Source: Microbacterium maritypicum
GTDB taxonomy: Bacteria > Actinomycetota > Actinomycetes > Actinomycetales > Microbacteriaceae
Direction of reading: 5' to 3'
Length of the DNA: 64,000 nucleotides
Assembly (NCBI RefSeq): GCF_041529975.1
Contig: NZ_CP168030.1
Span: 310,001 to 374,000, forward strand
Made by a program: the position numbers and the translations under genes
The notes under the pieces: generated by a model
Told to the model about the DNA's origin: nothing
Seen by the model: the letters and a program-made list of their open reading frames with translations, nothing else
Database searches by the model: none
Shown: one piece after another, positions 61,268-64,000 of the stretch
Layout of the letters: each line of letters begins with the position of its first letter
Position numbering within the stretch: position 1 is the first letter of the stretch

Positions 61268-61370
61268 CGGCATTCGGCGCCTGTTTCTGAGGAGTTATGC
61301 CCGGGCTAACGGCCGCACCACCCCTCGCGCCGAGGCAGAACCGCCCGGCTCGGGATAAAGTGGCGACACG

Positions 61371-62723
61371 ATGAGGATCACGCGCCGCACTCTGCTCCTC
61401 GGCGCCGGAGCCGGCGTCGCTTCGGTGCTTCTCGCCTCCTGCACCCCCGAACCCGCGCCCACGCCGACGCCCACGCGCACCCGTGAGCCCGAGCCTCCGC
61501 CCGGAGTTCCCGCGCCGGCCGGCAGCGTCCGCAGCACCTGGACCACCGACCCGTTCGCCCTCGGCGCCGTCAGCTTCACCCCGGTCGGGGTCGTCGCCGG
61601 CACCCGCACCGCGCTGGGTCTGCCCATCGACGACCGCGTGTTCTTCGCGGGCGAGGCGACCGATGAGGATGCTCCCGGCACGGTGCGCGGTGCCATCGCC
61701 TCTGGTGCGCGCGCCGCGGAGGAACTCATGATCCCGGGCAGCTCCGGCGAGCGGGTCGCCGTCGTCGGCGCCGGGCTCGCGGGCGCCACCGCTGCGGCAC
61801 TGCTCGCCGAACGCGGCGTGCAGGTGACCGTGTTCGAGGCGCGCGACCGCGTGGGCGGACGCGTCCACTCGCAGGTCGACGACTCCTGGCCGGTTCCGGT
61901 GCAGCTCGGCGCCTGGCTCTTCGGCGATGACGACTCCGAGGTCCTCGACCAGCTGACGAGCGGCGATGTCGGCATCGAGGAGCTGACCGGCGAGCTCTGG
62001 CGCACACCGGATGGCGATACAGACCCGGTCGACCCGCAACCGTTCACCGCGGCTATGACCACGGCGCAGGCGGCTCCCGAAGACTCCTCGGTCGCCGACG
62101 CCCTCACCGCGGCAGGCGTGGATCCCGCCGACCCCGCGACCGCCGCACTGCTCGCGATTCTCGCCACCCGCACCGGAGCCGATGCCGACGAGCTCTCCAG
62201 CTGGCTCGCCCCGCCTCTGCCGACCGGCGAGCCGAAGGCAGCCCGCGACGATCTCACTCCGTTCGTGGAGCACGCACTCGACGGCGTGCAGGTCGGACTG
62301 AGTTCCCCGGTCGCGCGCATCGCGTACGACGACTCCGGCGTCAGCGTGCGCCTCGGCACCGGTGAGGCCCTGTCGTTCGACCGGGTCGTCGTGACGGTGC
62401 CGCTCGGTGTGCTCCAGAAGCGCAGCATCGAGTTCGAGCCTGCGCTCCCGTTCTCGCAGCGGGGTGCGATCGCCGCTCTCGGCACGGGTGCGATCGAGAC
62501 CGTCTGGCTGCGGTGGGACGAGCCGTTCTGGCAGAACGAGGAGTCGATCTGGCACGCCGTGGGAGCCGATGTGCTGATCCCGACCTGGATCAACCTGCAG
62601 CCGACGACCGGAGAGAATGTGCTCGTGGGCCTCGTCGGCGGCACCGCTGCCGCGGACTTCGCCGCGCTCGACGAGAAGGCGGCCCTCGAAGCGGCCCTCG
62701 CCTCGCTCACGCTCTGGGTCTGA
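61371..62723 (+). CDS. Flavin amine oxidase lipoprotein with apparently permuted domain order
   Basis: A 450-aa secreted FAD enzyme. Residues 1-24 are a Tat-like lipoprotein signal (MRITRRTLLLG, LLASC), then a Pro/Thr linker to ~52. Residues 53-120 carry what is normally the C-terminal end of flavin monoamine oxidases: WTTDPFALGAVSF, then RVFFAGEATDEDAPGTVRGAIASG, RAAEEL. Only afterwards comes the normal N-terminal FAD fingerprint (VAVVGAGLAGATAAALLAERG, VFEARDRVGGR, 128-164). The central VVVTVPLGVLQKRSIEFEP (~337) and DEPFW (~383) follow, and the chain stops where the WTTDP part would be expected. Likely oxidises an amine, with peroxide and ammonia release, outside the membrane. One open frame, no internal stop. 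Confidence 0.88.
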   Translation: MRITRRTLLLGAGAGVASVLLASCTPEPAPTPTPTRTREPEPPPGVPAPAGSVRSTWTTDPFALGAVSFTPVGVVAGTRTALGLPIDDRVFFAGEATDEDAPGTVRGAIASGARAAEELMIPGSSGERVAVVGAGLAGATAAALLAERGVQVTVFEARDRVGGRVHSQVDDSWPVPVQLGAWLFGDDDSEVLDQLTSGDVGIEELTGELWRTPDGDTDPVDPQPFTAAMTTAQAAPEDSSVADALTAAGVDPADPATAALLAILATRTGADADELSSWLAPPLPTGEPKAARDDLTPFVEHALDGVQVGLSSPVARIAYDDSGVSVRLGTGEALSFDRVVVTVPLGVLQKRSIEFEPALPFSQRGAIAALGTGAIETVWLRWDEPFWQNEESIWHAVGADVLIPTWINLQPTTGENVLVGLVGGTAAADFAALDEKAALEAALASLTLWV

Positions 62724-62789: not shown

Positions 62790-63527
62790 CTAGCTCCGCG
62801 CGGTCGCCGTCTCCCGCGCGGATTCCTCCGGCACCTGCTCGCCCTCGACCGCGGGCGGCCGGTCCGGAGCATCGGCCTCGTCGTCGGCATCCGTCCGCAG
62901 TCGTCTCGGCAGCGGCATGCGGCTGATGAGCACGAGCACGGTCGAGACCACGGCGAAACTGCCGAGCGCGATCGCCGCCGACGCGAGGAACTCGATCGGC
63001 CCGCTCACCTGCCGCGGGTCGAGGAAGTAGTAGGGGTACCAGCCGATCATCGGCCCACGGATCATCGTCGCGACCCCCCAGAGCACCGGGTAGGCGAGGG
63101 ACACCGGGACCACCCGCCACGGCACCGATCGGTGGCCGGGCGCCAGGGCCCATGCCGCCACCGTCAGCGCCGGCAGCCAGAAGTGCAACACCTGATCCGA
63201 CCACGGCACATCGATGCGGATACCGCGGATGCCGGCCTGCCAGACGAGGATCGCGAACACCAGTCCGGCGGTGATCGTCCAGGTCAGCACGAGTGCCAGT
63301 GCCACCGTGAGCCACCGCGGATCCCGCGCCGCGCGCAGAGCGATCACCCCCGCGATCGTGAGCAGCACGACGAACGCGATGTTGGACTGGTTGGTCAAGT
63401 AAGCGAAGAAGTTCTGGCTCGCGATCGTGTGCGACGCGAGCCCCCAGCTCAGCCGGTGGATGAGCGCCACGAGGCAGACGGCGGCAGCGCCGAGGCGGAG
63501 CAGGCCGAAGGCGGTACGCGCCTTCAC
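62790..63527 (-). CDS. Pr6Pr family membrane protein
   Basis: A 245-aa, six-helix membrane protein of the Pr6Pr / FAR-17a-like type (FFAYLTNQSNIAFVVLLTIAGV; WSDQVLHFWLPALTVAAW; GWYPYYFLDP). The helices hold conserved polar residues (His in LHFWLP, Tyr cluster), like androgen-dependent TFPI-regulating-protein homologues. Charged C-terminal tail of ~45 residues. Function unknown; monocistronic and convergent with the amine oxidase. Confidence 0.9.
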   Translation of the reverse strand: MKARTAFGLLRLGAAAVCLVALIHRLSWGLASHTIASQNFFAYLTNQSNIAFVVLLTIAGVIALRAARDPRWLTVALALVLTWTITAGLVFAILVWQAGIRGIRIDVPWSDQVLHFWLPALTVAAWALAPGHRSVPWRVVPVSLAYPVLWGVATMIRGPMIGWYPYYFLDPRQVSGPIEFLASAAIALGSFAVVSTVLVLISRMPLPRRLRTDADDEADAPDRPPAVEGEQVPEESARETATARS

Positions 63528-63653: not shown

Positions 63654-64000
63654 TCAGCGTCGGGGTTCGCGGGTCGACCACAGCGCCAGTGCGACGAGCA
63701 CGGGCTGGAAGAACAGCCGGACGAAACGCTTCATGTCCGTGTCGAGGCCGAAGCCGTCACGGTGGTGCATCCACTGCGCCACGTTGCCGGGGAACACGGC
63801 GACGAAGAACAGTGCGGCGATCGTGCCGACCGTGCGCCGACGGCGTCGCGCCAGCAGCAGGGCAGAGCCGAGCGCGACCTCGGCCACGCCCGAGGCGAGC
63901 ACGGTCGTATCGGGGTCGAGCGGTAGCGACTCGGGAACCTGGGCCTGGAACTCCTCACGAGCCACCGTGAGGTGGGAGACGCCCGCGAAGACGAGGGAGG
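63654..64000 (-). CDS. DoxX-like membrane protein, partial at right edge
   Basis: The last 114 residues of a gene whose start lies outside the window. The frame continues to the edge (SLVFAGVSHLTVAREEFQAQ), so the internal GTG at 63965 is not the true start. Three hydrophobic segments are seen (VAEVALGSALLLA, TIAALFFVAVFPGNVAQWM, LFFQPVLVALALW). It matches small DoxX-like proteins (FAG-SHL opening and FPGNVAQ). Function unknown. Confidence 0.85.
   Translation of the reverse strand, partial: SLVFAGVSHLTVAREEFQAQVPESLPLDPDTTVLASGVAEVALGSALLLARRRRRTVGTIAALFFVAVFPGNVAQWMHHRDGFGLDTDMKRFVRLFFQPVLVALALWSTREPRR

Follow-up and report, generated by a model that had tools for sequence, protein, structure and literature searches.

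A window of 64,000 nucleotides from Microbacterium maritypicum (contig NZ_CP168030.1, positions 310,001 to 374,000) contains a gene for a 450-residue protein related to the flavin amine oxidases (FAOs) whose chain, judged by its sequence, is a natural circular permutation of the FAO chain. Canonical members of this superfamily (Pfam PF01593), including LSD1 and LSD2, polyamine oxidase, monoamine oxidase and L-amino-acid oxidase, have three blocks and the motifs of the flavin adenine dinucleotide (FAD) site in common with the window protein. They order the blocks, as LSD2 does, as Rossmann block, middle block and C-terminal block (C-block), whereas the window protein runs from a predicted signal peptide and a linker to the C-block, the Rossmann block and finally the middle block. 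The permutation itself is firm. The whole account, in which the permuted FAO is exported by the twin-arginine translocation (Tat) system, is anchored, has lost the lysine beside its flavin and reacts slowly with O2, we hold to be quite probable.

The GxGxxG Rossmann loop and the GEAT/SG block are the FAD-binding and FAD-contacting motifs of these enzymes, and both are invariant or nearly so in a 123-row alignment. In the window protein W57, D60-P61, G94-E95-A96-T97, P102-G103-T104, G107-A108 and S111-G112 all lie N-terminal to G133-A-G135-L-A-G138. A phmmer comparison with solved structures aligned the query to LSD2 (4gu0_A, 776 aa) in three stretches, residues 45-119 to LSD2 699-773 (i-Evalue 5e-6), 115-167 to 324-377 (1.2e-5) and 297-446 to 535-691 (3.3e-15), so that the first of these corresponds to the C-terminal end of a known enzyme. 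The Pfam Amine_oxidase model PF01593 scored 186 bits (cut-off 19.8), split in three stretches of the query. The preliminary description of this DNA had placed a WxxDP...GEAT...SG block ahead of the GxGxxG at 133-138, had taken the chain to end where that block would otherwise follow, and had concluded that a true circular permutation had gained a signal peptide and linker at its new N-terminus. The motif positions and the three-stretch match to LSD2 confirm the first point, the end of the structural alignment agrees with the second, and the conserved order and the linker comparison given below uphold the third, the signal peptide being a prediction.

Structure prediction and comparison with polyamine oxidase, proposed there as a check, gave a confident model (predicted local distance difference test [pLDDT], 93.1; predicted template modelling score, 0.88) that matches amine oxidases up to the start of the C-block. 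Averaged in blocks of ten, pLDDT was 91-98 across residues 41-120, and a helix (105-120) followed by a strand (128-132) flanks the new joint. Alignments to PDB structures were sequential and spanned model residues 117-450 at most, with segment 50-121 mostly outside them; model residues 127-450 were aligned, and the alignment ended at residue 377 of ZmPAO (a solved chain of 459 residues), at 735 of LSD1 and at 741 of LSD2. By sequential comparison the model has the common FAO fold, which it shares with the superfamily over residues 125-450. As modelled, the rearranged chain most likely still adopts the two-domain architecture of these FAD enzymes.

Table 1. Coordinates in the window of the permuted gene, its parts and its conserved neighbor
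Feature	Position	Strand	Basis or remark
Whole coding sequence, circularly permuted FAO-like protein with Tat-lipoprotein-like N-terminus (predicted)	61371..62723	+	450 aa; ATG start, TGA stop 62721-62723
Residues 1-24, predicted twin-arginine signal peptide; RR at 5-6, lipobox-like LASC, Cys24 the likely lipid attachment site	61371..61442	+	
Residues 25-49, Pro/Thr-rich linker, its end corresponding to the VPxP motif seen between the blocks in canonical linkers	61443..61517	+	Alignment
Residues 50-121, block forming the C-terminal end of canonical enzymes (RSTWTTDP, GEAT 94-97, PGTVRGA, SG)	61518..61733	+	phmmer, block hidden Markov model, pLDDT
Residues 122-126, the new joint, a few residues linking the former C-terminus to the former N-terminus	61734..61748	+	Model, spacing counts
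Residues 127-192, Rossmann FAD-binding block (GAGLAG 133-138, E156, RVGGR)	61749..61946	+	Pfam, phmmer, invariant columns
Residues 193-450, middle part (substrate and second FAD); chain stops where the canonical C-block would start	61947..62720	+	
Thr377 codon, position of the flavin-adjacent lysine	62499..62501	+	Alignments
Convergent Pr6Pr-family membrane protein	62790..63527	-	NF038065, 99.1 bits (cut-off 30); conserved neighbor

Conservation of the permuted order and its cut site

Block order was called with three profiles (C-block, Rossmann and middle) derived from an alignment (A3) of 102 homologues. Three database searches, with 2859, 2352 and 6558 matches, contributed 120 listed proteins apiece, 358 of them distinct in all, and all counts by search refer to the matches listed. 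The permuted order was found in 357 of the 358, each with one C-block and one Rossmann block; the single non-permuted entry, P0084, is an N-terminally short fragment without a C-block. At a threshold of 1e-30, 59 of 149 Microbacterium genomes match, one of these matches being short (1-138), and at locus L039 the match is cut by a contig end, yet its C-block end runs into the Rossmann block. Matches occur in 140 of 398 Microbacteriaceae genomes, 135 of them permuted by match range and spread over 31 of 85 genera, and the block profiles call five loci of the family canonical (L079, L080, L081, L084 and L085). The order containing the family adds four permuted loci outside it (L185-L188; 35 of 297 genomes match) and the phylum six more outside the order among the loci examined (L201-L204, L217 and L221; 62 of 396 genomes match), the gene at L221 being split across two frames. 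A scan of genome contigs, in which 80 loci were kept of at least 291 relatives, found 36 permuted and 44 canonical. At locus L040 (G083:C1:2255180-2256539) the match lies in two frames (1-346 and 343-449), and the gene looks frameshifted there.

The preliminary description had suggested a search for homologues of the same order in Microbacteriaceae; they were found, and the permutation extends beyond the family. Actinobacterial members come from Microbacteriaceae, Acidimicrobiales, Acidimicrobiaceae, Candidatus Microthrix and other actinobacterial metagenome-assembled genomes (MAGs), alphaproteobacterial members from Sphingomonadaceae, Paracoccaceae (Cochlodiniinecator), Devosiaceae and one unclassified alphaproteobacterium, and one permuted record from a single Opitutaceae MAG (L118).

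This conservation also bears on the possibility, raised in the same description, of a chimeric locus beside a normal-order gene. That the C-block of a neighboring gene was joined to this one by an assembly error, or that the gene is broken, is vanishingly improbable: nothing in its favor was found, and the same order is kept in independent genomes of the genus, the family and other phyla. The ratio of nonsynonymous to synonymous substitution rates (dN/dS) against five orthologues was 0.072 (L009), 0.184 (L012), 0.179 (L014), 0.258 (L016) and 0.274 (L018), a range of 0.07-0.27 that speaks against a chimera and by which the permuted gene is under purifying selection. No second copy adjoins the gene, which lies at 0.371 Mb, the other eight matches in the genome (E up to 1e-3) being at 1.36 Mb or beyond on the contig. 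The order is thus not a product of chance or misassembly, being conserved in hundreds of homologues with low dN/dS and no adjoining copy.

The cut was located with L150, a permuted and distant relative of the window protein, and the canonical L140. Across the linker between its middle block and C-block L140 reads TLRTIYGAKVPDPTHYAITRWGADP, its middle block TLRTIYG-AKVPDPTHYAITRWGADP leading into the C-block. L150 has the C-terminus DTLRLMFG and carries VTVPDPSDFVITRWRQDP after the signal, so that pieces of the L140 linker sit at the C-terminus of L150 and behind its signal, which places the cut inside this linker. The window protein retains GVPAPAGSVRSTWTTDP at the linker position after its signal and, unlike canonical FAOs, has both chain ends in the linker. 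The distance from SG to GxGxxG, which spans the new joint, is 19-22 residues in 348 of the 351 proteins measured: 21 residues in 226 of the 234 measurable from the first and second searches, and 19-20 in 114 of 117 from the third.

Nothing is evidently lost or doubled at the linker, as the preliminary description had claimed. A C-block duplicated at both ends was ruled out, since 358 of 359 proteins (query included) have one C-block match and one Rossmann match and the remaining protein is the fragment noted above. For members with a match ending near residue 386-405 an extra C-block was likewise rejected, those read carrying just an insert. Eight Microbacterium orthologues (L028-L035) have an insert near residue 388-402, in the middle block, that is either acidic or rich in Pro and Thr.

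The sequences show that a short joint came to connect the C-terminal FAD-contacting block of the ancestor with its N-terminal Rossmann strand, and that a new cut opened in the linker between middle block and C-block; the usual route, in-frame tandem fusion followed by trimming, is the probable one. Four loci of the same class (L211, L212, L213 and L224) have a second, weak FAO C-block (26-31 bits) in an open reading frame (ORF) lying upstream of a canonical FAO gene, a layout that could represent a starting point for tandem fusion.

Number of origins

A first tree set contained 106 rows, of which 25 were left out to give 81. A second set, of 194 rows, was made by skipping 23 loci and keeping 75 of the 120 third-search proteins and 6 others. 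Leaving out 48 of these rows gave a 146-row tree and leaving out 14 more a 132-row tree; the rows of an 80-row tree were hand-picked from the 194.

A single origin of the permutation is somewhat more likely, because the cut site and the joint are nearly identical throughout. Several observations run against our reading. All of the trees (106, 81, 146, 132 and 80 rows) split the permuted rows into more than one group. In the 81-row tree the canonical L172 (Roseibium) groups with L115 and L150 at 97/87, and it stands apart, its placement not resolved, in the 146- and 80-row trees. The one Opitutaceae record is nested among alphaproteobacterial proteins in the 81-row tree and may have arisen by transfer or mis-binning. 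That the order arose repeatedly at this one linker, for instance once in a Microbacteriaceae/Acidimicrobiales group and again in an alphaproteobacterial group, is a possible explanation of which we are doubtful. It can point to the 106-row tree, whose best single branch groups 41 of 57 permuted rows and omits 16, and to the later trees, which need 4 (81 rows), 4 (146), 4 (132) and 3 (80) changes of order, with a single change in 0 of 200 bootstrap trees for the 81- and 80-row sets. However, an approximately unbiased (AU) test in which the permuted rows were held as one clade did not reject that arrangement (p 0.0714 for 81 rows and 0.142 for 80), strongly supported branches force just 1 change in the wider 146- and 132-row sets and in the 80-row set (2 in the first, 81-row set), and the cut site and the length of the joint are almost equal in the groups measured. 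The backbone of the trees is weak.

A more far-reaching proposal is that exported FAOs made the same permutation repeatedly, a shift of the N-terminus off the FAD-binding Rossmann strand and into a surface linker allowing a Tat signal and lipid anchor to be added while FAD binding stays intact, and that the enzyme of Microbacteriaceae, so freed, then dropped the lysine and became a surface amine dehydrogenase; this we think unlikely. Loci L185-L188, from other families of the order containing Microbacteriaceae, form a very long-branched permuted group and are possibly a separate subfamily or origin.

Export, the flavin-adjacent lysine and probable chemistry

The N-terminal sequence of the window protein, MRITRRTLLLGAGAGVASVLLASC (residues 1-24), resembles a twin-arginine lipoprotein signal, with a twin-arginine pair (RR) and hydrophobic run recognized by eye and pattern, and R5, R6 and C24 are invariant in a 38-row alignment (A1). 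In listed proteins 395 or more residues long, RR was counted within the first 45 residues and a lipobox-like motif within the first 60. RR is present near the N-terminus in 327 of 351 such near-full-length members (111/117 in the first search, query included, 110/118 in the second and 106/116 in the third). The lipobox-like motif is present in 116/117, 115/118 and 31/116, respectively, so that third-search members, several of them named Alphaproteobacteria, mostly have RR without a lipobox. Because the new N-terminus bears both a predicted twin-arginine signal and a lipobox-like motif, the folded, FAD-loaded enzyme would most likely leave the cytoplasm through Tat and be held by a lipid anchor at the membrane's outer face; membrane anchoring of the window protein is likely.

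The lysine position distinguishes the window protein from canonical FAOs, which have a lysine near flavin N5 in 69 of 72 rows (104 of 122 permuted rows, among the 194 tree rows). In alignments the window protein has Thr377 there, and on this comparison the absence of the lysine is firm. The lysine is kept in 120/120 proteins of the third search, in 26/118 new proteins of the second and in 0/121 of the first (query included), and the motif GASWIHG of several distant relatives is replaced by GAWLFG in the window protein. Two changes between lysine and non-lysine are needed in the 80-row tree, one in the main Microbacteriaceae group (12 rows) and one in the canonical L136. Since the tree places one lysine change within Microbacteriaceae, the lysine was apparently lost once there, after the split from lysine-keeping Cryobacterium-like members. 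The ancestor, judging from relatives, would have retained the catalytic lysine, and the Microbacteriaceae branch would have swapped it and altered the nearby motif.

According to PMC12224317, a lysine beside flavin N5 is nearly universal in FAOs and aids the reaction with O2, and its replacement by Glu may account for the lowest O2 rate measured in that work. Because both the lysine and the nearby motif are changed, we infer that the window enzyme most likely goes on oxidizing an extracellular substrate, an amine or something like one, but passes electrons slowly to O2 and probably uses another acceptor. Some results count against parts of this account. In the genome contig loci with all three blocks, where start codons were not fixed, RR and a hydrophobic run precede the first block in 33 of 35 permuted ORFs and also in 24 of 44 canonical ORFs, a count by which a tight tie between export and permutation is weakened. 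Canonical FAOs at two Microbacteriaceae loci (L079 and L080) have Tat-lipoprotein-like N-termini with RR and a lipobox-like motif, as in the window protein, but keep the lysine; export and anchoring are thus independent of the permutation. No cytochrome was found among the seven window neighbors scanned with Pfam, and no CXXCH protein in flanks of up to 4 kb at 12 permuted loci outside Microbacteriaceae (simple ORF picking), and these scans thus give no indication of a cytochrome c partner. The missing lysine could, moreover, mean that the oxidation chemistry has been lost altogether.

Two alternatives concern the chemistry. In the first, the protein is a Tat-exported amine oxidase whose reaction with O2 runs at normal speed despite the missing lysine. 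This would fit PMC12224317, which reports a fast reaction with O2 for the majority of the Tat-signal FAOs tested that had no cytochrome c gene nearby, but we think it rather unlikely given the possible link drawn in that paper between loss of the lysine and the lowest O2 rate, the position here being Thr. The other alternative accepts the permutation and holds that the Microbacterium protein is no longer a redox enzyme but a flavin- or substrate-binding surface lipoprotein. The lysine missing in 121/121 proteins (the query and the 120 listed by the first search) and the change of GASWIHG to GAWLFG are in keeping with such a role, whereas the FAD-contacting motifs stay invariant, dN/dS indicates purifying selection and the lysine-replaced FAO of PMC12224317 is still an enzyme, with a slow O2 reaction; we judge this reading improbable. 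A permuted, anchored FAO that is slow with O2 remains the preferred interpretation.

Comparison with known systems and neighboring genes

The amine dehydrogenase NicA2 has the canonical block order. As PMC12224317 describes them, NicA2 and the amine dehydrogenase Pnao resemble the window protein in FAO fold (NicA2 is among the Foldseek matches) and Tat-type signal, whereas NicA2 keeps Lys340 and has a nearby-encoded cytochrome c, and the window protein has Thr at that position, a permuted chain and a lipobox. Pfam and NCBIfam hold no model specific to the permuted branch, and NCBIfam names no equivalog for the window protein, its best match, HpnE, reaching 76 bits where the cut-off is 283. No paper on a circularly permuted amine oxidase or FAO was found among those listed in searches of an open-access library, subscription papers being mostly outside the scope of these searches. 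PMC2395249, on a circular-permutation search tool, has among its references a note from 1998 about a probable circular permutation in a flavin-binding domain; a word search of PMC2395249 itself finds neither amine oxidase nor FAD.

The similarity-based name monoamine oxidase conceals the rearrangement in such proteins, which make up a large permuted FAO branch in at least two phyla (Actinomycetota and Pseudomonadota, with a third via one MAG). With this branch, the influence of chain order on FAD loading, Tat export and oxygen reactivity could be tested on naturally occurring proteins, for which a comparison set is at hand in permuted enzymes with and without the lysine and in canonical exported relatives.

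A Pr6Pr homologue lies downstream on the opposite strand in 20 of the 24 Microbacteriaceae loci compared (window included), as grouped by single-linkage clustering of blastp matches, with the window's protein and two others confirmed by NCBIfam. The same clustering found no member at 12 permuted loci from outside the family, and no paper containing the word Pr6Pr was found in the open-access library searched. Upstream of the permuted gene Pfam identifies a PadR-type regulator, an NAD(P)H-binding protein, an HTH_20-domain regulator and an AHSA1-domain protein, and the neighbors of members outside Microbacteriaceae are diverse (ten proteins scanned). A small ORF at 63654-63998 (minus strand), open at the window end, is weakly MauE-like, scoring 20 bits where the Pfam cut-off is 27. 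The sequence ataaagtg occurs at 61355-61362, and because it lies only 9-16 bases upstream of the ATG, the transcript of the permuted gene may have a very short leader.
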